DNA from: Tardiphaga sp. vice304
GTDB taxonomy: Bacteria; Pseudomonadota; Alphaproteobacteria; Rhizobiales; Xanthobacteraceae
Direction: 5' to 3'
Assembly: GCF_007018905.1 (NCBI RefSeq)
Contig: NZ_CP041402.1
Coordinates: forward strand, 2,778,001-2,842,000
Length of the DNA: 64,000 nucleotides
In this document: positions 3,121 to 26,236 of the stretch, piece by piece
How positions within the stretch are numbered: position 1 is the first letter of the stretch
Layout of the letters: each line of letters opens with the position of its first letter
Notes under the pieces: generated by a model
The model's database searches: none
What the model was told of the DNA's origin: nothing
What the model saw: only the letters and a program-made list of their open reading frames with translations
Made by a program: the position numbers and the translations under genes

Positions 3121-3240
3121 TGTCATTCCGGGGCGCGAGCGCGCCAGCGCGAGCGAACCCGGAATCCCGAAGTGTTCATCGTCCCATCTCGGGATTCCGG
3201 GTTCGCGACCGGCTGTCGCCGTCCACGCCCCGGAATGACA
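3121..3240. repeat. Palindromic intergenic element, family A copy 2
   Basis: Same family as 1974-2092. Ends are TGTCATTCCGGGGC and GCCCCGGAATGACA, which are reverse complements. The centre contains CGGAATCCCGA and TCGGGATTCCG arms. It lies between the SDR gene and the thiolase. Confidence 0.88.
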
Positions 3241-3360
3241 ATTTGCCACCGCAACCCTGCGCCGCGAAAATCGCCGGGTTCCGGCCTCGCCATCCCCCAC
3301 CGCCCGCGCCTATATTGAGCCCAACGTCGATTACGACATCATGCTCAGGGAGAAACCACC

Positions 3361-4530
3361 ATGACCGCCAGCATCGTAGGATGGGCGCATACGCCGTTCG
3401 GCAAGTTCGATGCCGAGACCGTCGAAAGCCTCGTCGTAAAAGTTGCCACCGAGGCGATGGCCGATGCCGGCATCTCGGCCGCCGATGTCGATGAGATCGT
3501 GCTCGGCCATTTTAACGCTGGCTTCTCGCCGCAGGATTTCACGGCCTCCCTGGTGCTGCAGGCCGATCCGGCGCTGCGTTTCAAGCCCGCCACCCGCGTC
3601 GAGAACGCCTGCGCCACCGGTTCCGCCGCGGTCCAGCAGGGCGTCAAGTCGATCGCTGCCGGTACGGCGAAGATCGTGCTCGTGGTCGGCGTCGAGCAGA
3701 TGACGCGCACGCCGGGCCCGCAGATCGGCAAGAATTTGTTGCGCGCGTCCTACCTGCCCGAAGACGGCGAAACCCCCGCGGGCTTTGCCGGCGTGTTCGG
3801 CGGCATCGCGCAGAAGTATTTCCAGAAATACGGCGACCAGTCGGACGCACTCGCCATGATCGCCGCCAAGAACCACGCCAATGGCGTGCACAACCCCTAT
3901 GCGCAGATGCGAAAGGACGTCGGCTTCGAGTTCTGCCGTTCTGAGAGCGAGAAAAATCCGTTCGTGGCCGGACCGCTCAAGCGCACCGATTGCTCGCTGG
4001 TGTCAGATGGCGCGGCCGCCTTGATCCTGACCGATGCCGAGACCGCAAAAGCGATGGGCAAGGCCGTCACCATCAAGTCGACCGCTCATGCCCAGGACTT
4101 TTTGCCGATGTCCAAGCGCGACATCCTGCTGTTCGAGGGCTGCACCGTCGCCTGGCAGCGCGCGCTGGAGAAGGCCGGCGTCACGCTCGACGATCTCTCC
4201 TTCGTCGAGACGCATGACTGCTTCACCGTCGCCGAACTGATCGAATACGAGGCGATGGGTCTGACGCCGCGCGGGCAGGGCGCCCGCGCCATCAAGGAAG
4301 GCTGGACCCAGAAGGACGGCCGACTGCCGGTCAATCCGTCCGGTGGCCTGAAGGCCAAGGGCCACCCGATCGGCGCCACCGGCGTCTCGATGCATGTGCT
4401 GAGCGCGATGCAACTGCTCGGCCAGGCGCCGGAAGGCATGCAGATCAAGAACGCCAAACTCGCCGGCATTTTCAACATGGGCGGCGCGGCGGTGGCGAAC
4501 TACGTCTCGGTGCTCGAGCCCGCGAAGTAG
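3361..4530 (+). CDS. Thiolase family acetyl-CoA acyltransferase
   Basis: Thiolase-fold enzyme, 389 aa, expected to cleave 3-ketoacyl-CoA with CoA (or run in reverse). The nucleophile is Cys84 in NACATG. His285 sits in THDCFT and His335 in KGHPIGATG; both are typical of SCP2/SCPx-like thiolases. The ATG at 3361 follows a GGGAGAAACC ribosome site. It starts a run of CoA-handling genes, with only 3 bp to the ligase downstream, so it is very likely the thiolytic step of that pathway. The preceding 120 bp hold the repeat and probably the operon promoter. Confidence 0.93.
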   Translation: MTASIVGWAHTPFGKFDAETVESLVVKVATEAMADAGISAADVDEIVLGHFNAGFSPQDFTASLVLQADPALRFKPATRVENACATGSAAVQQGVKSIAAGTAKIVLVVGVEQMTRTPGPQIGKNLLRASYLPEDGETPAGFAGVFGGIAQKYFQKYGDQSDALAMIAAKNHANGVHNPYAQMRKDVGFEFCRSESEKNPFVAGPLKRTDCSLVSDGAAALILTDAETAKAMGKAVTIKSTAHAQDFLPMSKRDILLFEGCTVAWQRALEKAGVTLDDLSFVETHDCFTVAELIEYEAMGLTPRGQGARAIKEGWTQKDGRLPVNPSGGLKAKGHPIGATGVSMHVLSAMQLLGQAPEGMQIKNAKLAGIFNMGGAAVANYVSVLEPAK

Positions 4531-4533
4531 CGC

Positions 4534-6066
4534 ATGAACATTGCGCAATGGCTGGCGGCGTCGGCGCGGTTGCATCCCGATGCGCCGGCATTGCTGCGCG
4601 GCACGACGATCGAGGCCGACTACGCCGCCTTCGCCCGCCGCGCGGCGGCGATCGGCGCCGGGCTGGCGCGCGATTACGGCATCCGGCCCGGCGACCGCGT
4701 CGCTTTGTTCATGTCGAACTGCACGGCCTATCTCGAATGCCTCTATGCGGTATGGTGGATCGGCGCGGCGGTGATCCCGATCAATGCCAAGCTGCACGGC
4801 CGCGAGGCGGCATGGATCTGCGACAATGCCGGATCGAGGCTGACGCTGGTCGATGACGACAGTGCCGCGGCCTTGTCGTCCGTGATGGAGGACATGCCGG
4901 CCGGGATGCAGATGCTGTCGGTGGAGTCCGCCGACTACCGAACCTTGCAGCATGACGACGGCGGCGCGGCGTCGCCGCACGCGCGCGAAATTAGCGACCT
5001 TGCCTGGCTGTTCTACACCTCCGGCACCACGGGGCGCCCGAAGGGCGTGATGCTCAGTCACGGCAATCTGGTGGCGATGTCGATGTGCTATCTTGCCGAT
5101 GTCGATACCGTCTCGCGCGAGGATGCCATCCTCTACGCCGCGCCGATCTCGCACGGCGCCGGCCTGTATAATTTCATCCATGTCCGCATGGCGGCGCGCC
5201 ATGTCGTGCCGGTATCAGGCGGCTTCGATGCCCCTGAGGTGCTCGACCTCGGCCGGGCCTTGAAGAATGTCGCGATGTTCGCCGCGCCCACCATGGTGCG
5301 CCGACTGGTCGATGCCGCGAAACAGCGCGGCGAAACTGGCGAAGGTATACGCACCATCGTCTATGGCGGCGGGCCGATGTATCTCGCCGATATTCGCGAC
5401 GCGATCACGACGATGGGACAACGTTTTGTCCAAATTTATGGGCAAGGCGAGTCACCGATGACCATCACCTCGCTGCCGCGGTCGTGGCATGCCGACGTCG
5501 AACACCCCCGTTTTCTCGACCGCCTCGCTTCGGTCGGTGTCGCGCAGAGCGTCATGCAAGTGCGTATTACCGACGTGGACGGAAAGCCGCTGCGGGCGGG
5601 CGAGACCGGCGAGATCGAGGCCAAAGGGCCGACGGTGATGCTGGGCTACTGGAATAACCCCGAAGCCAACGAAGCGACGCTGAAGGACGGCTGGCTGTGT
5701 ACCGGCGACGTCGGCCGGCTCGACGCGGACGGCTTCCTCACGCTGTCGGATCGCTCCAAGGACGTCATCATCTCCGGTGGCACCAACATCTATCCGCGCG
5801 AGGTCGAGGAGGCGCTGCTGACGCATCTGGACGTCCGCGAGGTCTCGGCGATCGGCGTCGCCGATCCGGAATGGGGCGAGATCGTCGTCGCCTGCGTCGT
5901 GCTGGAGCAGGGCTCTGCGACCGACGCCGCTGCGCTGGATGCGCATTGCCTGCAGGCTATCGCCCGCTTCAAGCGGCCGAAGCGCTATGTGTTTCTCGAG
6001 GCGCTGCCGAAGAACAATTACGGCAAGGTGTTGAAGACGGAATTGCGGGAGCGGATGAAGGGTTGA
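4534..6066 (+). CDS. AMP-forming acyl-CoA synthetase (class I ligase)
   Basis: Activates a carboxylic acid to its CoA thioester via an acyl-adenylate, 510 aa. The P-loop-like motif YTSGTTGRPKG is at residues 161-171, the hinge-region motif TGD at 390-392, and the catalytic C-terminal lysine is Lys498 (NNYGK). It begins 3 bp after the thiolase stop, so it is in the same operon. Substrate (fatty, aromatic or terpenoid acid) is not determinable from sequence. Confidence 0.93.
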   Translation: MNIAQWLAASARLHPDAPALLRGTTIEADYAAFARRAAAIGAGLARDYGIRPGDRVALFMSNCTAYLECLYAVWWIGAAVIPINAKLHGREAAWICDNAGSRLTLVDDDSAAALSSVMEDMPAGMQMLSVESADYRTLQHDDGGAASPHAREISDLAWLFYTSGTTGRPKGVMLSHGNLVAMSMCYLADVDTVSREDAILYAAPISHGAGLYNFIHVRMAARHVVPVSGGFDAPEVLDLGRALKNVAMFAAPTMVRRLVDAAKQRGETGEGIRTIVYGGGPMYLADIRDAITTMGQRFVQIYGQGESPMTITSLPRSWHADVEHPRFLDRLASVGVAQSVMQVRITDVDGKPLRAGETGEIEAKGPTVMLGYWNNPEANEATLKDGWLCTGDVGRLDADGFLTLSDRSKDVIISGGTNIYPREVEEALLTHLDVREVSAIGVADPEWGEIVVACVVLEQGSATDAAALDAHCLQAIARFKRPKRYVFLEALPKNNYGKVLKTELRERMKG

Positions 6067-17488: not shown

Positions 17489-19504
17489 ATGTTCAAACGT
17501 ATCCTGATCGCCAATCGCGGCGAGATCGCCTGCCGCATCATCAAGTCCGCCCGCCGCATGGGCATCCAGACCGTCGCGGTCTATTCCGAGGCCGACCGTG
17601 ACGCGCTGCATGTCGCGATGGCCGACGAGGCCGTGCTGATCGGCCCGCCGGCGGCCAGTGAAAGCTATTTGCTGATCGAGAAGATCATCGAGGCCTGCCG
17701 CAAGACCGGCGCCGAGGCTGTGCATCCCGGCTACGGCTTCCTGTCGGAGCGCGAAGCGTTTCCGCGTGCGCTGGAAGCCGCCGGAATCGTGTTCATCGGC
17801 CCCAACCCGGGCGCCATCGCCGCGATGGGGGACAAGATCGAATCCAAGAAGGCGGCGGCCAAGGCCAACGTCTCCACCGTGCCCGGCCATCTCGGCGTCA
17901 TCACCGACGGCAAGCACGCCATCAAGATCGCCGACGAGATAGGCTATCCCGTGATGATCAAGGCCTCCGCCGGCGGTGGCGGCAAGGGCATGCGGATCGC
18001 GTACTCGACCTCTGAAGTCGAGGAGGGCTTCGGCCTGGCAACCGCCGAGGCGAAGTCCTCGTTCGGCGACGACCGCGTGTTCATCGAAAAGTTCATCGTC
18101 GATCCCCGGCACATCGAGATCCAGGTGCTCGGCGACAAGCACGGCAACGTGATCTATCTCGGCGAGCGCGAATGCTCGATCCAGCGCCGCAACCAGAAGG
18201 TCATCGAGGAGGCCCCGTCGCCCTTGCTGGACGAAACCACCCGGCGGAAAATGGGCGAGCAGGCGGTCGCATTGGCCAAGGCCGTGAACTACGATTCCGC
18301 CGGCACGGTGGAATTCGTCGCCGCCCAGGATAAGAGCTTCTACTTCCTGGAGATGAACACCCGTCTGCAGGTCGAGCATCCCGTCACCGAACTAATCACC
18401 GGCGTCGATCTGGTGGAGCAGATGATCCGCGTGGCCGCCGGCGAGAAGCTGCAGATGGCGCAGAAGGATGTCACGCTGACCGGCTGGGCGGTGGAATCCC
18501 GTGTCTATGCCGAGGACCCGTTCCGCAACTTCCTGCCCTCCATCGGCCGTCTGGTGAAGTACCGTCCGCCCGCCGAGAGCCGCGTCGACGGCATCACCGT
18601 GCGTAACGACACCGGCGTGCAGGAGGGCGGCGAGATCTCGATCTATTACGATCCGATGATCGCCAAGCTGGTCACGCACGCGCCGTCGCGCGCCGCCGCC
18701 ATCGAGGCGCAATCGCACGCGCTCGATGCCTTCTATATCGACGGCATCCGCCACAATATTCCGTTCCTGTCGGCCTTGATGAGCCACCCGCGCTGGCGCG
18801 AGGGGAATCTCTCCACCGGCTTCATCGCCGAGGAATTCCCCAAGGGCTTTGCCGCGCGCAAGCCGGAGGGCGAGGTGGCGCGCCGCATCGCTGCGGTGGG
18901 CGCGGCCATCGACCATGTGATCGGCGAGCGCAAGCGGCAGATTTCCGGCCAGCTAACCGGCCGTCCGGTGCTCCGTGCCGGCCGCCGCGCGGTGTGGCTG
19001 GAGCGCGAGGAGATCGTGCTGGAGGTGGCGCGCGAGGATTTCGGCATTGCCGTACGCTTCGTCGCGCGCGATGGCAGCGTCGGCACCGCGCACCTGATTG
19101 CCTCGACCTGGACGCCGGGGCAGCCGGTCTGGGAAGGCAACATCGACGGCCATCCGGTGGCCATGCAAGTGCGGCCGATCCCCAACGGCATTCGCCTTGC
19201 GCATCAAGGCTATGAGGTCGCGGTCAACGTGTTCACCGAGGCTGAGGCCGCGTCGGCGCGGCTGATGCCGGTCGGCGTCAAGGCCGACACCGGCAAGAAG
19301 CTGCTGTGCCCGATGCCGGGCCTGGTGGTGTCGATCGCCGTCACCGAGGGACAGGACATCAAGGCCGGCGAGACGCTCGCCGTCGTGGAGGCGATGAAGA
19401 TGCAGAACGTGCTGCGCGCCGAGCGCGACGGCATCGTCAAGAAGATCCACGCCACGGCCGGCGCGACGCTCGCGGTCGACGCGCTGATCCTGGAATTCGC
19501 ATGA
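17489..19504 (+). CDS. pccA: Acetyl/propionyl-CoA carboxylase alpha subunit (biotin carboxylase + BCCP)
   Basis: 671 aa. Residues 1-450 form the biotin carboxylase (N-terminus MFKRILIANRGEIACRI; ATP-grasp glycine loop GGGGKGMRI; ERECSIQRRNQK). Residues ~480-580 are the linker domain that binds the beta subunit. The C-terminal biotinyl domain has the EAMKM motif with Lys637 as the biotin site. It fixes CO2 onto biotin for carboxylation of propionyl-CoA or acetyl-CoA. The beta subunit is not in this window. The next gene overlaps by 4 bp (ATGA). Confidence 0.94.
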   Translation: MFKRILIANRGEIACRIIKSARRMGIQTVAVYSEADRDALHVAMADEAVLIGPPAASESYLLIEKIIEACRKTGAEAVHPGYGFLSEREAFPRALEAAGIVFIGPNPGAIAAMGDKIESKKAAAKANVSTVPGHLGVITDGKHAIKIADEIGYPVMIKASAGGGGKGMRIAYSTSEVEEGFGLATAEAKSSFGDDRVFIEKFIVDPRHIEIQVLGDKHGNVIYLGERECSIQRRNQKVIEEAPSPLLDETTRRKMGEQAVALAKAVNYDSAGTVEFVAAQDKSFYFLEMNTRLQVEHPVTELITGVDLVEQMIRVAAGEKLQMAQKDVTLTGWAVESRVYAEDPFRNFLPSIGRLVKYRPPAESRVDGITVRNDTGVQEGGEISIYYDPMIAKLVTHAPSRAAAIEAQSHALDAFYIDGIRHNIPFLSALMSHPRWREGNLSTGFIAEEFPKGFAARKPEGEVARRIAAVGAAIDHVIGERKRQISGQLTGRPVLRAGRRAVWLEREEIVLEVAREDFGIAVRFVARDGSVGTAHLIASTWTPGQPVWEGNIDGHPVAMQVRPIPNGIRLAHQGYEVAVNVFTEAEAASARLMPVGVKADTGKKLLCPMPGLVVSIAVTEGQDIKAGETLAVVEAMKMQNVLRAERDGIVKKIHATAGATLAVDALILEFA

Positions 19505-20370
19505 CCTTCCGTACCCGTCGCGAGGCACTGCGCGCGATCCTGTCGGGCTCGCAATGCCTGCGTCCGGCTTCGGTCTATGACGCGATTTCGGTGCGCATCG
19601 CGGAGGATATCGGCTTCGAGGTCGGCATGTTCGGTGGCTCCGCGGCCTCGCTCGCGGTGCTCGGCGATCCCGATATCGCACTGATCACGCTGTCCGAGCT
19701 GGCCGAGCAGATGCGGCGGATGTCGCGCGCCGCGGCGTTGCCGGTGCTGGTCGATGCCGATCATGGCTACGGCAATGCCATGAACGTCCGCCGCACCGTG
19801 CAGGAATTGGAGATGGCGGGCGCCGCCGGCTTGACCATCGAGGACACGCAGCTTCCGGCCGCCTATGGCGAGGCGAAGCCGCAACTGATTGCGCTGCAGG
19901 AAGGCGTAGGCAAGATCAGGGCCGCGCTCGAGGCGCGGCGCGATTCTTCGCTGGTGATCGTGGCACGCACCGGCGCTGCCTCCATCGCCTCTATCGACGA
20001 CGCCATCGCGCGAGCGCGGGCCTATGAGGCGCAGAGCCCCGACGCGCTGATGTTCACCGGCGTAAAGACGCGGGCCGAACTCGAAACCATTGCCGCGGCG
20101 ACGACGCTTCCGATCGTGCTGGGCGGATTGACCGACGACATCACCGATTGGGACTTCCTCGCCCGCCAGCGCGTCCGCATTGCCGTGCAGGGCCACGCGC
20201 CGATCGCCGCGGCGACGCAGGCGGTGTTCGCCACGCTGACGGCGATCCGCGATGGCGTAGCGCCAAAGGATCTGCCTGGTCTGGCGTCGTCGGATCTGCT
20301 GGACTGGGTGACGCGCGCAGCCTTGGTGAAGCAGCGCGGCGGCGACTTCCTCGGCCTGAAGAAATCATGA
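19501..20370 (+). CDS. Isocitrate lyase/PEP mutase superfamily protein (oxaloacetate decarboxylase-like)
   Basis: 289 aa TIM-barrel enzyme. The metal-binding block [12 protein letters not shown] and [13 protein letters not shown] are present. The KKCGH catalytic loop of true isocitrate and methylisocitrate lyases is missing, which points to the oxaloacetate decarboxylase / PEP-mutase-like branch. Start ATG overlaps the carboxylase stop by 4 bp; the longer open frame upstream is a shadow of the carboxylase. The stop overlaps the truncated acylphosphatase copy by 4 bp. Confidence 0.88.
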
Positions 20371-20513
20371 GCGATACGATCCGGCACGTCACCGTCAAGG
20401 GCCGCGTGCAGGGCGTCGGCTATCGCGCATGGGTTGCCCACACCGCTGACGACCTCGGCCTAGAAGGCTGGGTCCGCAACCGCCGCGACGGCATCCTATC
20501 ACGGCGTGGCTGA
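20367..20513 (+). pseudogene. Acylphosphatase, truncated copy
   Basis: The first 42 codons match the intact acylphosphatase at 21676-21975 (MSDTIRHVT, the [12 protein letters not shown] phosphate loop, and [10 protein letters not shown]). After Gly42 homology stops, six unrelated codons follow, then TGA. The catalytic Arg and the loop survive, but the C-terminal half including strand 4 is lost, so it should be inactive. The break is exactly where the DUF4268 insertion begins. Confidence 0.88.
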
Positions 20514-20514
20514 C

Positions 20515-21504
20515 TTAAGCGTAGGATATCGGGGGCTCTGAACTGTCAATCTGCTTAAGGCACTTTTCAATGCGAGCAGGAAAAACAGATTTGAACTTCA
20601 ACATACTTAAGATTGCCCACTGCTGAATCTTTAGAAGTTCTTCGGAGTCCGCATCAATACCACCATCGTGATATGTGGCGATACGGCAGGCTCTTTTCTC
20701 GTCGAGGCGCTCCCAGCTCAAGGTCGAGCCGAACTCGTTTTCTATCTCCTCCTTTTGACTGTAAAGGCAATCAAAAAGTCGCTCGTTCTTACCTTTGTCT
20801 CCGCAGTCGAGGTAGGTCTCTACGCGGACTCGATCGCCGTTGGCAAAGCTGGTGCCATACTTATAAATTCGCGAATTATCGGAGGCAAAAGTGTACCAGT
20901 TTTGCGGCTGTCCAGCTCTTGCATTAGTGAAATGGTGCTTTTCGCGAAGCTCGTCGATGAGAGCTTGAAAATATTCTCTGTATCTTTCACGTGTTTCGGA
21001 AATCGGTTGTGCGCCCTCTGGCGTCGTGGCTGCAACTTCCGTCGGTCGCGATACGACGCTCAGCACGAAGGCCGGCTTCGAGTTGTCAATCCGTATGACC
21101 GAGGCTTCTAAAGCGTATAACCTGAGGCTCTCCTTTAAATTCTGGTTTAGGAAATCTATCGCGGATTTGTGCTCCGATCGAATGCTCTCAGCAATCCAAA
21201 CGACAACACCTGCACCGAGGACAGAAGAATACGTGATTAATTGCCCTAAGTGGCGATGGTCTGTGTTCCCAAACTGATTTTCAATAACCACCAGATGATT
21301 TGTAGAGAGGTCTCTCGCTATAATGTCAGCAGAAAAATCTCCCGCAGATGCTTCCGTGCTTTCTAATTCGAGATCCATCCCCAACTTTTGGGCTAATACG
21401 TCTAAGTTTTGCGCAAGCCATGGCGTGAAATGCGTAGCCTCTCCGGACCAAACGTCTCTGAGCGGCAGATTTACTATCGCACCTAGTTCCAACATGATGT
21501 TCAC
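20515..21504 (-). CDS. DUF4268 protein with PD-(D/E)xK-like nuclease fold
   Basis: 329 aa. The N-terminal ~150 residues look like a restriction-endonuclease fold: SADIIARD followed by LVVIENQFG, i.e. D...ExQ in place of D...ExK. The C-terminal half (from about residue 185, RYREYFQALIDEL) matches the DUF4268 pattern. The gene is markedly more AT-rich than its neighbours, which supports recent acquisition. It stands alone between two divergent halves of the isocitrate-lyase-family/acylphosphatase region. A defence or DNA-cleavage role is an inference from fold and context only. Confidence 0.8.
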   Translation of the reverse strand: MNIMLELGAIVNLPLRDVWSGEATHFTPWLAQNLDVLAQKLGMDLELESTEASAGDFSADIIARDLSTNHLVVIENQFGNTDHRHLGQLITYSSVLGAGVVVWIAESIRSEHKSAIDFLNQNLKESLRLYALEASVIRIDNSKPAFVLSVVSRPTEVAATTPEGAQPISETRERYREYFQALIDELREKHHFTNARAGQPQNWYTFASDNSRIYKYGTSFANGDRVRVETYLDCGDKGKNERLFDCLYSQKEEIENEFGSTLSWERLDEKRACRIATYHDGGIDADSEELLKIQQWAILSMLKFKSVFPARIEKCLKQIDSSEPPISYA

Positions 21505-21579
21505 CGGCCGTCGAATTCGCTGACATATGAAGTTGAGACATAAGGAAAATTTTTCTGTTTGGTCAATTGTTGATCTAAC

Positions 21580-21679
21580 GCACGGGCGCGCGCCTACGAG
21601 GTGCTTGCTCGACTGGGTGACGCGCGCCGCGTTGGTGCGGCAGCGCTACGGCGAATTTCTGGGATTGAGCAAGCCATGA
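21580..21679 (+). pseudogene. Remnant of a second PEP-mutase-family gene (3' end)
   Basis: Codons at 21580-21600 read ARARAYE, matching the ARARAYE stretch inside the intact gene at 19501-20370. The frame then jumps to the last 25 codons ([10 protein letters not shown]..., ending GLSKP-stop). About 80 codons between the two parts are missing. The surviving 3' end differs from the intact copy at many positions, so it is a divergent allele and not a fresh duplication. Confidence 0.8.
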
Positions 21680-21975
21680 GCGATACGATCCGGCACGTCA
21701 CGATCCGCGGTCGCGTGCAGGGCGTCGGCTATCGCGCATGGGTTGCCCACACCGCCGACGGCCTCGGCCTCGAAGGCTGGGTCCGCAATCGCCGCGACGG
21801 GAGCGTCGAGGCGGTGCTCGCAGGGCCTGTCGATATCGTCGAGCAGATGATCGAGCACTGTCGCCGCGGCCCGAGCCACGCGCGCGTCGATACGGTCGCG
21901 GCGACGGAGGCCGGCGCCGACATGCTGAACCTCCGGAACGCCGGCGAAGATTTCTCGGTGCTGCCGACGCTCTGA
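21676..21975 (+). CDS. acyP: Acylphosphatase, intact copy
   Basis: 99 aa, the standard length. It hydrolyses carboxyl-phosphate bonds. The phosphate-binding loop [11 protein letters not shown] includes the catalytic Arg, and the essential Asn is in [14 protein letters not shown]. The ATG overlaps the remnant gene's stop by 4 bp, preserving the ancestral operon spacing. This is the functional counterpart of the truncated copy at 20367-20513. Confidence 0.92.
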
Positions 21976-22029
21976 CGGCGGTTGCGCCGTCAATTGACAA
22001 AAATCCTATAGCGGCATATAGTCCTCTTG

Positions 22030-22400
22030 TCCGGTTCGACGAGGGGCGCTGTCATGAGGCGTCTGATAGTGGAGCCGGAGGCGGTGTCCTGCGCGTGTGC
22101 CTCGCAAGCACACCCCGGGAGGCCGGGGGTCGCCGTCCGGGCCTATTACGGGGCTCTGCCGCTCTTTGTCGGCTGGACGCGGGATAGGTGACGGCGGGAA
22201 ACCGCCGGGCGCGGGCTGAGGCCCGAACCGCACCAGGTCCCCGGAAGCACGGTCCCCCGGCCAAAAACCACCGCGGTGGCGCGCCCGCAGGCGCCGCGAT
22301 CCATCGCAAGATGGACCGCGTCCCAGCCACCACAACCGCGCCTGACGGCGCGCCGCTCCCCTCATGTCTGGAGGGGAGAACTGCTCACAGCTCGGACGCC
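22030..22400 (+). ncRNA. Candidate structured RNA (run of hairpins with GNRA loops)
   Basis: This 540-bp gap between acyP and lipB holds a dense series of perfect stems. CGGCGG-GAAA-CCGCCG is at 22192-22207. CGGGC-TGAG-GCCCG is at 22212-22225. CCACCGCGGTGG is at 22268-22279. CGCG-a-TCCATC-GCAA-GATGGA-c-CGCG is at 22295-22320, and CTCCCCTC/GAGGGGAG at 22356-22378. Two of the loops are GNRA tetraloops. I do not recognise a known RNA class. An alternative is a 45-aa frame at 22054-22191 (starts MRRLIVEPEAV); it has no clear ribosome site. Strand is assumed from neighbours. Confidence 0.4.
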
Positions 22401-22517
22401 ACTGGCGCCGCGAGAACGAGACCGCTCGGCTGTTTGACATTCAGATCGGAATTTGCCGCGAGTGCGGATCTTCATCTTTCCCGGAACAGGAGAGACTAAC
22501 AAAGGACAACCGCGCGC

Positions 22518-23246
22518 TTACACCAGCGTTTCCGGCACACGCGTGCCGGTTTCACCGAACACCTCGCCGAACGCCTGCCGCAATGCGACGTCGATATCTT
22601 CCATGCTCACCGGCAGGCCGAGATCGACCACGCTGGTGACCCCAAAGCGCGGATCGACAATGCCGCAGGGCACGATCGACTGGAAATGGCCGAGGTCCGG
22701 TTCGACATTGATCGAGATGCCGTGAAACGACACCCAGCGCCGCAGCCGGACGCCGATCGCGGCGATCTTGTCCTCATGGCCATCACCCTTGTCGGGCCGG
22801 GTCACCCAGACGCCGACGCGGTCCTCGCGGCGCTCGCCGCGGACGTTAAAGGCGGCGAGCGTCCGGATGATCCATTGCTCCAGCGAGGCGACGTAAGCGC
22901 GCACGTCCGGCCGCCGCGCCTTGAGGTCGAGCATCACATAGGCGATGCGCTGGCCGGGGCCGTGATAGGTCAGCTGGCCGCCGCGGCCGGTCTCGAACAG
23001 CGGAAAACGTGCATCCAGCAGATCGCCGGGCTTGCCCGATGTGCCGGAGGTGTACAGCGGCGGATGTTCGAGCAGCCAGACCAGTTCCGGCGCGGTGCCG
23101 TCGGCGATGGAAGCGGCGCGCGATTCCATCTCCGCGACAGCTTCGGGATAGGGAATCGGCGTGTCCGACACCCGCCATTCCACCGCGGGGCCGTCATCGC
23201 CGCGTAAAAACGGCTGGATATCGAGGGTGTTTCGGTCGTTAACCAT
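22518..23246 (-). CDS. lipB: Lipoyl(octanoyl) transferase LipB
   Basis: Transfers octanoyl from acyl carrier protein to lipoyl domains of 2-oxoacid dehydrogenases and GcvH, 242 aa. The signature [16 protein letters not shown], the lysine of KIAAIGV and the catalytic cysteine in VPCGI are all present. ATG at 23246 (MVNDRNTLD) is chosen over an upstream start, because family members begin near here. It diverges from the FliN-like gene, with the two starts close together. Confidence 0.94.
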
Positions 23247-23311
23247 TGGGTAACCATAAGATGGTGATGTCGAATTTAGTGCAATCTTGCATCTGTGACT
23301 GCGGGGCCCGC

Positions 23312-23554
23312 GTGCCAACCCTCGATAAAATTACGGTCGACATCATGGTGGTCCTCGGGACCACCTCGATGCCTGTGCATCAGGTGATGCGGCTCAGCCG
23401 CGGCGCCATCATTGAACTCGACGCCGGCGAGCAGGACGAGGTGAAAATCCTCGCCAACAACCTGCCGATCGCCTCCGGCGTCGTGCAGGTCAACCGCAAC
23501 CGGATCGCGGTCGAAGTCAAGCAGATGCTGCCCAGGACCTCTGAACACAGATAG
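23312..23554 (+). CDS. FliN/FliM-type (SpoA domain) flagellar motor switch protein
   Basis: 80 aa, essentially only the C-terminal SpoA domain: [28 protein letters not shown] then [21 protein letters not shown]. This is a minimal FliN-like form found as an isolated gene in Bradyrhizobium relatives. GTG at 23312 (VPTLDK) is chosen because the domain begins at once and GGGG precedes it; starts at 23246-23267 would add an unrelated cysteine-rich leader. A role in the flagellar switch or a type III apparatus is inferred. Confidence 0.8.
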
Positions 23555-23652
23555 GTGGCGGCAATCTCGCATCGGGCCTTGTCCCCCCATCATTGTTTTG
23601 TTACATCGGCGCCGGTTGATCCGGTTGGCGAAAGCCCTCGCCGGACTCTTTA

Positions 23653-23737
23653 GCGCTCGTGGCGGAATTGGTAGACGCGCTGCCTTGAGGTGGCAGTCCG
23701 TAACAGGGTGGGGGTTCGAGTCCCTCCGAGCGCACCA
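23653..23737 (+). tRNA. tRNA-Leu (GAG)
   Basis: 85-nt class II tRNA. The acceptor stem is GCGCTCG/CGAGCGC. The D-loop reads AATTGGTAGAC, the anticodon loop TTGAGGT gives GAG, a variable arm is present, the T-loop is GTTCGAGTC, and the CCA end is encoded. The phage integrase gene ends 22 bp beyond it, so the 3' half of this tRNA is the likely attachment core and was restored by the phage end. Confidence 0.96.
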
Positions 23738-23759
23738 ACCTCAAATTTTAACATTGATA

Positions 23760-24860
23760 TCATTCGTCTTTTCCCCCTGAGGCCCGCACCTTTTGGTCAG
23801 GTGAGGGAATAGACGTTTCCGTTTCGGTCCTCGAAAGCTTCGCAGCGGCGCCGGCAGCCAAGCGCTTCCGGTTCGATTCCTTGGTGTAGATCTTCGACGT
23901 CTGGCCATCCTCCCAACCAAATAGCGCGTCGAGTTCGGAATCGGTGCCGCCGCGATCGGCGACGTTGGTGGCTGCGGCCTTGCGCAGGCCGTGGGCCGAC
24001 TTCTTGATGCCGGCGGCGCGGCATGCTTCCGCAAACAGGTTGCCCAGCACTTCCTTCCTGAGCGGCGCGCCGTTGTTGGCGTTGCCGATGAAGGCGAGGT
24101 CGCCCGTCGGGCCCGCGTCGAGCGTAGCCTGCAGTTCTGGCAAAATCGGGATGTGCACCCAGGTGCCGGTCTTCTCGGTTTCAAGCGTGATGACGCCCTT
24201 GCGGACGTGCTGCTTGCCGACGCGCGCGGCGTCTCCCCGTCGCAGGCCGGTGTAGAGGAAAATGTCGAACATCACCCGCGGCCGGGTGCCGCGCGGCCAG
24301 CAGCGCTCGAAAGCCGCGATGTCCTCGTCGGTCCAGACCGGGAAGCCGCCTTTGCGCTGGTTCTTCGACCGCTTGAACTTGATGCCGATCGTCGGATCCT
24401 GCCGTGCCAGCTTGGCGTCGATCGCCCATGCGAACATATTGCGGATGGTGGTGACGAAGTGCTTGGCCTGCGACGGCGTTGCAGATCGTCGTTCCTTGCC
24501 AGCCTTGATCGAGGCGGCGTTGATCTTCGACAGCGGATGCGCGCCGGCAGCCTTCAAGACATGGCGCATGATGTTTTCGCGCTGCCGCCGCGTGGCCATC
24601 GACAAGTCGCGCCAGTCGTCGGACTGCCGATACAGGTTCCACAGCCACTCGAGCGTGCCCTTGGCGGCCTTGCCGGGTTCTGGCGCTGTCTCGCCGTTCA
24701 ATGCCGCCTGATAGGCGGCTTCAAAGTCGGGGGTGCCGTAAGTGGCCTTGATGCGAATGCGCGGGCCCTTGCCCATGCGGACGTACCAGACCGTCTTTCC
24801 ATGACGGCTGACTTCATGGTGCAGGTGCGGCGGGCGCGGTCTGGGCATGTTGGGCATCAA
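23760..24860 (-). CDS. int: Phage tyrosine recombinase (integrase)
   Basis: 366 aa. An N-terminal SAM-like core-binding domain spans about residues 65-155. The catalytic domain has Arg207/208 (TGLRRGD), His290-x-x-Arg293 (HGLRK), Trp316 and the nucleophile Tyr325 (SKIYTKE). It integrates and, with a directionality factor, excises the phage at the adjacent tRNA-Leu. The gene points toward the tRNA, as is usual. It is the last gene of a minus-strand operon in which every stop overlaps the next start by 4 bp. Confidence 0.95.
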   Translation of the reverse strand: MMPNMPRPRPPHLHHEVSRHGKTVWYVRMGKGPRIRIKATYGTPDFEAAYQAALNGETAPEPGKAAKGTLEWLWNLYRQSDDWRDLSMATRRQRENIMRHVLKAAGAHPLSKINAASIKAGKERRSATPSQAKHFVTTIRNMFAWAIDAKLARQDPTIGIKFKRSKNQRKGGFPVWTDEDIAAFERCWPRGTRPRVMFDIFLYTGLRRGDAARVGKQHVRKGVITLETEKTGTWVHIPILPELQATLDAGPTGDLAFIGNANNGAPLRKEVLGNLFAEACRAAGIKKSAHGLRKAAATNVADRGGTDSELDALFGWEDGQTSKIYTKESNRKRLAAGAAAKLSRTETETSIPSPDQKVRASGGKDE

Positions 24861-25054
24861 AGAACCACGATTTCATCTTCTTCAAGCTGAATTGACGGTG
24901 CGCGCTCTGATTGTCCCCGGTGATCGGGTGTTTGGAGGTGGACAAAGATGCTGCCATCGAGCCGCAGCTCTACGCCCTTGGCGCCGGCCTGGATCGCCGC
25001 TCGCGTCGCACGGGCAATATCGGCCTGATTGAAGCGGGCGGCGGTGCGGCTCAT
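24857..25054 (-). CDS. Small phage protein, possible excisionase-position gene
   Basis: 65 aa: a basic N-terminal helix (NQADIARATRAAIQAGAKGVELRLDG) then an acidic C-terminus (IQLEEDEIVVL). It is coupled to the integrase by a 4-bp ATGA overlap. Directionality factors often sit here, but no winged-helix motif is evident, so the function is not assigned. Confidence 0.75.
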   Translation of the reverse strand: MSRTAARFNQADIARATRAAIQAGAKGVELRLDGSIFVHLQTPDHRGQSERAPSIQLEEDEIVVL

Positions 25055-25263
25055 GCCTCACCTCGGTCGTGAGACGAAAGCGCGGTGAGCCGGTTATTGA
25101 CCCGGCGCAGCGCGCCGCTGCACAGAAGCGGTTGCACAGTGCGGACTTCGTAGAACGGCCCGGCCTTCGAACGCGCGTAGCCGCGGCGAAAGGGCGAGAG
25201 CGGCTCGATCGTGGCCTCGACGATGCACTGACGCTGCGCGGGGGAAAGCGGTCGCACCCTCAT
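25051..25263 (-). CDS. Small hypothetical phage protein
   Basis: 70 aa, basic (MRVRPLSPAQRQCIVEAT...). The N-terminal helix SPAQRQCIVEA resembles a start of a DNA- or RNA-binding helix, but no family is recognised. ATG at 25263 is chosen over a longer frame because it overlaps the upstream stop by 4 bp and is itself coupled to the next gene. It is part of the integrase operon. Confidence 0.65.
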   Translation of the reverse strand: MRVRPLSPAQRQCIVEATIEPLSPFRRGYARSKAGPFYEVRTVQPLLCSGALRRVNNRLTALSSHDRGEA

Positions 25264-25352
25264 GACAGCACCATTGCCCACACGGAGATCATACCGCAGA
25301 ACGCCAACAGCGAGAGCAGCGCCGCGACTTCCTTCGCCATCAGCCTGATCAT
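25260..25352 (-). CDS. 30-residue single-helix membrane peptide
   Basis: The peptide begins MIRLMAKEV and continues with about 20 hydrophobic residues (AALLSLLAFCGMISVWAMV). Its start overlaps the upstream stop by 4 bp and its stop overlaps the next start by 4 bp, which makes coding likely despite the size. Function unknown; candidates are a superinfection-exclusion or small regulatory membrane peptide. Confidence 0.6.
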   Translation of the reverse strand: MIRLMAKEVAALLSLLAFCGMISVWAMVLS

Positions 25353-25558
25353 GCCAATTCCTCCGCGCCGATCGCGCCGCGGACGGCAGCGATTTGGGCA
25401 TCGAACAGCGCGACCGAGGGCGCGCTGTTGCTGTTGGTGGCCAGCAGAATAGCGTTGTCGATGACACGCTCGCGAACCGCCGCCGGCAGGTGCCGGGTCG
25501 CGTAGCAGGCTGCCTGATAGGCGCCAAGCATCTGATCGGCCTGCTGCTGCGAGGTCAT
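25349..25558 (-). CDS. Small hypothetical phage protein
   Basis: 69 aa, alpha-helical and soluble (DQMLGAYQAACYATRHLP...; ALFDAQIAAVRGAIGAEE). I do not recognise a family. It is coupled at both ends by 4-bp overlaps within the integrase operon. Confidence 0.7.
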   Translation of the reverse strand: MTSQQQADQMLGAYQAACYATRHLPAAVRERVIDNAILLATNSNSAPSVALFDAQIAAVRGAIGAEELA

Positions 25559-25830
25559 GCGGATGCGCCGGCCAGACGCTGGGCGAAGGTGCGGGCCTTG
25601 CCAGCCAGAGCGTCGAGCTGGCCCGACGTCCAGCCAAGCGTCTCAAGGTCGTCGCGGGTGATGCTTTCGCTGCGGCGCATGTCGTCCGCCAGCTGGGCGA
25701 CAGCGGCGGCACCGGTAAGCCCGGCGCGTGGCTGCACCATGGCGCTGTCGATCAAGGCCGACACGGTCGCTTGGGTGCGGAGTGTGGAAGGGGCGGGCGG
25801 AAGGCGGTTGCAGCGGTTGTGGCGTGGCAT
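25555..25830 (-). CDS. Small hypothetical phage protein, first gene of the integrase operon
   Basis: 91 aa with a basic N-terminus (MPRHNRCNR) and a C-terminal part rich in helices (SITRDDLETLGWTSGQLDALAGKARTFA) that could be a helix-turn-helix. ATG at 25830 is chosen over 25854 because GGGAG lies 9 bases before it. The palindrome TTTCACGTGAAA (25854-25865) and the operator at 25874-25887 lie just upstream. Being first in the operon and next to regulatory sites, it could be a directionality or regulatory factor. Confidence 0.65.
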   Translation of the reverse strand: MPRHNRCNRLPPAPSTLRTQATVSALIDSAMVQPRAGLTGAAAVAQLADDMRRSESITRDDLETLGWTSGQLDALAGKARTFAQRLAGASA

Positions 25831-25853
25831 CGAGGATGTCTCCCGTGAAGTCA

Positions 25854-25887
25854 TTTCACGTGAAACGATCTAGTCGGAAATATCCGA
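25854..25887. promoter_or_regulatory. Operator region of the integrase operon
   Basis: TCGGAAATATCCGA (25874-25887) is a TCGGA-N4-TCCGA palindrome, extended to AGTCGGA/TCCGACT arms. It matches the two sites near the repressor gene. A separate perfect palindrome TTTCACGTGAAA is at 25854-25865. Two further TCGGAAA half-sites follow at 25894-25910. Position directly upstream of the first gene suggests repression of the integrase operon by the CI-like protein. Confidence 0.75.
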
Positions 25888-25912
25888 CTGTCAATCGGAA
25901 AGTCGGAAATGA

Positions 25913-26236
25913 CTAGCCGAGGCTGATGCCGAGCGTCTTTTTCACCGCGCCGATCTGGCGTTTGATGGTTTCAGCTTGCGTTTCTAAGCGTTGCAGTTCT
26001 GCGAGGGCGCTTGCGATGGTCGAGCCAGCGATGCCCTGTCTGAGGCTGGCGACGTATTCGTGCCCAGACACGACCGCAGCGACATCGCCGTCGATGAGGG
26101 CAAGCCTATGCCAGCAGAGCGTGAGCTTCTTGCCGGCTGGGCAAGAGCACACAACTTTTACGTCGTCCCCATTTTGATGGAAGGTTACCTCATAGACATC
26201 GTCGTTTGAGCGCGATTTGACTATGATCGTGTTCAT
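25913..26236 (-). CDS. SWIM-type zinc-finger phage protein
   Basis: 107 aa. The motif CSCPAGKKLTLCWH gives CxC...CxH, the SWIM zinc-finger pattern, at about residues 29-43. The C-terminal ~45 residues form a probable coiled coil (LAELQRLETQAETIKRQIGAVKKTL). SWIM domains bind DNA or proteins. Start ATG 26236 overlaps the stop of the secreted-protein gene by 4 bp. Confidence 0.75.
   Translation of the reverse strand: MNTIIVKSRSNDDVYEVTFHQNGDDVKVVCSCPAGKKLTLCWHRLALIDGDVAAVVSGHEYVASLRQGIAGSTIASALAELQRLETQAETIKRQIGAVKKTLGISLG

Follow-up and report, generated by a model that had tools for sequence, protein, structure and literature searches.

How did an AT-rich gene come to lie between two damaged copies of one housekeeping gene junction, how much of its surroundings arrived with it, and what might it encode? 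The locus is in a window (the whole stretch of DNA analysed, 64,000 nucleotides from Tardiphaga sp. vice304) that is part of one 5.79-Mb contig. It is the scar of a single-gene acquisition, real and well resolved, and, to all appearance, a commonplace event that happens to be easy to trace, in which recombination brought in a single gene of another bacterium. A defence candidate that consists of one gene and lies outside a defence island is easy to miss, and with scars on both sides of the insert the route of entry can be argued base by base.

Anatomy of the locus

On the left lies the native copy of a PEP-mutase-like gene (19501..20370, + strand; Pfam PF13714, 1.3e-34), which is intact and shares 81-84% DNA identity with its five nearest relatives. 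It is followed by an acylphosphatase gene (acyP; 20367..20491, + strand), in which the conserved RNRRDG block marks the point of truncation, after codon 42, as seen by aligning the left and right copies; its frame continues for six codons beyond the end of homology at 20491 and then meets a stop at 20511-20513. A 23-bp junction sequence (20492..20514), found once in the genome when up to three mismatches are allowed, separates this fragment from a gene encoding a DUF4268 protein of 329 aa (20515..21504, − strand; Pfam PF14088, 1.5e-25; PADLOC PDC-S11). The gene starts with GTG at 21504, a possible ATG being present at 21495, and is preceded by an AT-rich leader (21505..21578, − strand) in which a consensus scan found no sigma-70-type promoter. 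At the insert boundary, on the same strand, stands GTTAGAT (21573..21579), which fits the integron core site GTTRRRY.

To the right of this boundary, a remnant of a second PEP-mutase copy is preserved in two pieces separated by 4 nt. The first (21580..21600, + strand) encodes ARARAYE and differs from the left copy at 4/21 bases, all synonymous, while the C-terminal piece (21605..21679, + strand) overlaps the start of the right acyP; the counterpart of left positions 20029-20295 (267 bp) is absent between them. The right acyP (21676..21975, + strand) is intact and native (Pfam PF00708, 2.4e-24, a match computed with three extra codons), and a lipB-like gene with a lipoyl ligase domain (22518..23318, − strand; PF21948, 7.9e-34) forms the native right flank. 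The left and right copies can be matched without gaps over 195 bp, with 87% identity and 26 differing sites. This anatomy is not a chance similarity, because an operon of accA-like, PEP-mutase and acyP genes is present in relatives, mostly with adjoining lipB. The GC content of the DUF4268 gene is 0.48, as against 0.64-0.69 in the flanks on either side. The original prediction had described just this arrangement, with an AT-rich single-gene cargo between a left copy broken in acyP and a right copy broken in the PEP-mutase gene, and in these respects it was accurate.

Genomic surroundings

The region to the right of the insert is itself variable. Between acyP and lipB (21976-22517) there is a dispersed repeat with 12 further matches in the genome (71-93% identity, partly adjacent), and a 506-bp spacer at the same spot in the genome G008 has similar-looking reading frames. 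Behind lipB, a tRNA-Leu(gag) carries a prophage (window 23653-44260), with a tyrosine integrase (23760-24860) adjoining the tRNA gene and further matches to a DNA methyltransferase, a terminase, a portal protein, a head protease and a major head protein. The tRNA gene was present in 11/11 loci scanned (of 19 fetched) and the genes behind it differ; one of the 10 ORFs taken from 10 loci at this position gave a weak integrase match. As the insert in acyP lies about 1.7 kb from this busy integration region, the latter may help to explain the variable acyP-lipB spacer. Transfer by the neighbouring prophage was considered as a route of entry for the insert and set aside.

Foreign and native parts

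The two halves of the duplicated junction have diverged to different degrees. Between the PEP-mutase remnant and the left copy 21/92 sites differ, between the acyP copies 10/125 (Fisher P 0.003). Of the remnant substitutions, 13.5/21 are synonymous, against a neutral expectation of 26% (P 0.0006), and the remnant therefore appears to have diverged as a working gene in another lineage. The acyP differences show a weak synonymous excess (5.5/10, P 0.08), so part of this divergence may be decay; six of the ten cluster at 20393-20402.

In their 5' parts, the left and right acyP share 0.92 identity, compared with 0.75-0.84 to five tabulated relatives, and the genome G012 is the nearest relative of the right acyP, the left PEP-mutase gene and lipB alike. 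Both copies of acyP would thus be native, because the left and right pieces are each other's closest match and because the right one shares its nearest relative with the two native genes around it. We conclude from these comparisons that the foreign part comprises the PEP-mutase remnant and the cargo only. The claim that this is not a simple target duplication holds as far as the remnant is concerned, with its mostly synonymous divergence; the proposal of a foreign acyP is not supported. Different positions among relatives had been expected for the two acyP copies, and their being mutually nearest goes part of the way against the original prediction.

The sister relationship of the two acyP copies, which have bases in common that are absent from the aligned relatives, is what one would expect if the end of the operon had been doubled in this lineage, illegitimate recombination had put the cargo between the two copies, and the halves no longer in use had then decayed. 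We regard such a native tandem duplication as quite unlikely, given that the divergence of the remnant is mainly synonymous and nearly three times that of acyP. A donor genome with the joined arrangement was not found among 391 family genomes, in which the best match of the right copy reached 82% only.

Distribution among relatives

Operon DNA was matched in all 18 genus genomes, the source genome included, several of these assemblies being only 77-87% complete. A DUF4268 gene at acyP was seen in none of the 17 others (with the contig of G006 ending inside acyP and several assemblies incomplete), and within the genus a full-length DUF4268 gene is confined to the source genome, G001 having a partial match elsewhere. 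With matches in 9/296 family genomes, two of them partial, and in 16/398 genomes of the phylum at E 1e-20, the gene is rare and patchy. In 9/20 loci with homologues, its GC content is at least 0.08 below that of both 4-kb flanks.

The original prediction had seen in the housekeeping operon a landing site. This found little to sustain it: besides the 0/17 genus genomes just mentioned, a survey of acyP proteins in 100 family genomes found a second partial acyP beside the first in one, the source genome. Outside that sample, G017 has a second, decayed acyP (L040, about 3197-4774 for the arrangement, in turned orientation), which over 157 bp shares 90% identity with the first and begins at the RNRRDG block, the same block where the left copy ends here. 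Between its intact and decayed acyP lies an outer-membrane-type gene, a cargo that is not defence-like. Taken together, the two loci are suggestive of a preferred breakpoint at RNRRDG, although two cases prove little. A DNA pattern of the block proved uninformative as a site probe, with 278/296 genomes matching it, often several times each. Different defence cargo at the same acyP breakpoint was not seen in the relatives, G017 having the outer-membrane-type gene there, and we rejected the idea of a recurrent defence hotspot at acyP.

Among the loci fetched, acyP and lipB are 15-257 bp apart in 12 genomes; of the two G005 loci, one falls in this range. Gaps of over 500 bp occur in 4/17 genomes (G008, 506 bp; G017, 2439 bp; G005 at its other locus, 3270 bp; G001, 5815 bp). 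In G001, FecR, sigma-factor and TonB-receptor genes lie between acyP and lipB (L044, 3432-8915), and acyP is seemingly frame-shifted.

Elsewhere, relatives of the DUF4268 gene have rpoD, a lytic transglycosylase gene, a glutathione peroxidase gene, radC or an EPSP-synthase-family gene as neighbours. In B. glycinis it occupies the rpoD-transglycosylase spacer, which is variable among Bradyrhizobium-type genomes. The families listed for 89 neighbouring ORFs of 14 relatives, 25 of 150, are nearly all methyltransferases, each with at most two ORFs, suggesting that these neighbourhoods are mostly not defence-like as far as the listed families go. In an Archaeoglobus provirus record (L107, 4530-6939), the gene adjoins others annotated as PD-(D/E)XK superfamily and AAA ATPase, and at L055 a rifampin ADP-ribosyltransferase domain is encoded upstream of it (4744-5136). 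Flanking direct repeats of any kind were detected in 4/20 loci (L052, L055, L060 and L072), all short or weak and none like the partial gene duplication described here. Comparing the non-coding ends of nine relatives with the window, we found none shared upstream and a single 15-bp match downstream.

Predicted function of the DUF4268 protein

The protein matches the PADLOC PDC-S11 profile at 1.4e-105, with residues 5-314 aligned to positions 3-314 of 318. Invariant residues in an alignment of 19 proteins (numbered by its first row) include E21, E50, D59, E74, N75 and Q76, and the D...ExQ core recognised in the original prediction, D59 and E74-N75-Q76, is therefore common to all of them. An AlphaFold2 model built with the 19 sequences (pLDDT 84, pTM 0.49) has strands at 44-53, 56-64 (with D59) and 69-79 (with E74 and Q76), a helix at 82-95 and a further strand at 97-106, which puts D59 and E74/Q76 on adjacent strands of a sheet resembling that of nucleases. 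The model shows a three-strand sheet of the PD-(D/E)XK type, flanked by helices, whose strands 2 and 3 bear the acidic residues. The last motif of such nucleases is usually ExK, and ExQ variants, for example BglII, exist; in none of the 19 proteins is this lysine present, Q76 being invariant.

In a Foldseek search, repair endonucleases of the EndoMS/NucS type accounted for two of the top three chains, and by family for all three (E 6.8e-4 to 1.2e-3, probability 1.00), with the MspJI restriction endonuclease lower in the list (7e-3). As the TM-scores reach only 0.26-0.28 by query and 0.35-0.39 by target, the likeness to EndoMS/NucS is best read as a fold resemblance of one domain. At E 1e-3 and above, the search also listed chains of Arp2/3 and of type III secretion chaperones, which were judged meaningless for function. 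No credible match was obtained from a sequence search of solved structures or from Pfam for the N-terminal domain, and an NCBIfam search with the protein gave no match.

From the model and the family match, we consider this to be probably a DNA-cutting protein of the phage-defence type, with a restriction-like anti-phage nuclease as the most likely candidate function: the N-terminal EndoMS/NucS-like domain would cut DNA, the DUF4268 domain would help in target recognition, and the gene alone would defend the cell against phage or plasmid DNA. It is rather unlikely, yet worth keeping in mind, that the gene instead encodes a repair or housekeeping nuclease, or is a selfish gene that merely travels. 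The closest solved folds are those of mismatch-repair enzymes and the relatives sit beside the mixed set of genes named above, both of which point that way, whereas the match to a candidate defence family, the rarity of the gene and its AT-rich composition speak for defence. The PDC-S11/DUF4268 family in any case gains a testable hypothesis, in which the nuclease domain is EndoMS/NucS-like and its ExQ core invariant.

Route of entry

The observed anatomy, foreign base composition, remnant divergence, family match and fold resemblance lead us to favour, at slightly better than an even chance, a reading in which 20492-21600 is a horizontally acquired insert, composed of a PDC-S11-type candidate anti-phage nuclease gene and a fragment of the PEP-mutase gene of a related bacterium, and placed by single-crossover or one-sided homologous recombination. 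Its absence from 17/17 other genus genomes and its GC content argue for acquisition. The incoming DNA would have carried the DUF4268 gene beside a partial PEP-mutase/acyP region of another bacterium and would have recombined into the native operon by way of the homology at and near the PEP-mutase/acyP junction. This could have been a single crossover with a circular molecule, its homologous segment having been trimmed at both ends, or an event with one homologous and one illegitimate end. Either would leave a left copy cut at its 3' side, a right copy cut at its 5' side and one working acyP.

The unequal divergence of remnant and acyP is a perfect fit with neither. A single crossover should leave the left and right copies equally diverged on either side of the exchange point, contrary to what is observed. 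A one-sided event fits less well, because recipient DNA is usually deleted rather than duplicated in such events, as stated in the available part of PMC3240628. In the test of homology-facilitated illegitimate recombination, the divergence of the remnant fits a foreign arm, and the left junction is without a donor for comparison.

A possible integron origin of the cargo

The motif at the right boundary raises the question whether the cargo once was an integron cassette. An integron integrase would have put a single cassette at a secondary G^AT site in the donor PEP-mutase gene, and the region would later have recombined into the present genome, its attC end being lost at the left junction. The boundary, read on the strand of the gene, is G^TTAGAT exactly at the end of PEP-mutase homology, where the left copy has G^AT. 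Excerpts of PMC10127599 describe GTTRRRY as the integron core with its cut point at G^TT, together with the recognition of GNT/GTTRRRY and, in secondary sites, cutting at GAT. Two homologues are also placed like cassettes: the one in L053 (an Acidobacteria MAG) follows a strong attC (fold z -5.4), with another attC at 3151-3222 in an apparent array, and the one in L058 (a Desulfobacteraceae MAG) has an attC-like hairpin 2 bp past its stop codon, again in an apparent array.

We nevertheless think that such a cassette relic is improbable. No attC was found in the window, either in a scan of 18000-26000 or in a stricter one beside the gene, and a clear attC lies beside the gene in only 2/14 homologous loci, a third candidate (L049) having a loose motif with a fold z of -0.55. 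None of 18 further loci (L071-L076, L106, L107 and L131-L140, four of which match the family profile only in part) has an attC beside the gene, and the same scan gave five matches in 85,749 bases of control loci. An integron integrase above the NCBIfam cut-off was present in 0/18 genus genomes, and 14 control genomes likewise gave sub-cut-off matches only. A seven-base motif at one boundary may be chance. The literature searched yielded no report of DUF4268 as an integron cassette.

If the integron link were true, it would mean that defence cassettes settle in core operons of integron-less genomes. In its fullest form, which we consider a long shot, a candidate gene for a defence nuclease would have come out of an integron as one cassette, inserted at a secondary G^AT in a housekeeping gene and lost its attC. 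Its later spread among relatives would have been by ordinary recombination of the surrounding housekeeping DNA, and in this way defence cassettes would leak out of integrons into such operons.

Comparison with known systems

The locus shares with integron gene cassettes a GTTRRRY core at the 5' boundary and homologues that in some cases adjoin attC, and differs from them in being without attC 3' of the gene and without an integrase above the cut-off. Closer in anatomy are the products of homology-facilitated illegitimate recombination and of single crossover, in which, as here, cargo lies beside broken copies of a conserved anchor gene (as far as described in the accessible parts of PMC5361080 and PMC3240628). 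The sections of PMC3240628 at hand report partial target duplications in 56/60 conjugation clones, of 109-950 bp in 14 sequenced ones, and interpret them as single crossovers of a circular molecule after loss of homology. Unlike in those systems, the two flanking copies have here each lost a different end, and acyP is native on both sides.

The predicted N-terminal fold is like that of EndoMS/NucS, whose catalytic domain is RecB-like according to an excerpt of PMC8228993; the present protein differs in having ExQ for ExK and an added DUF4268 domain, and the two have no sequence match. DUF4268 also occurs in some homologues of the type IV restriction enzyme GmrSD, as noted in part of PMC4619093, but a Pfam search found DUF4268 alone here, not DUF262 or DUF1524. 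PDC-S11 itself is presented in the available portions of PMC10855318 and PMC12813430 as a single-gene phage defence candidate family, and the former reports it from 10/100 P. aeruginosa strains, 90% of these in the resistant group, which is a correlation only. To this family the protein described here is matched over the whole length of the profile, and no tested feature sets it apart.
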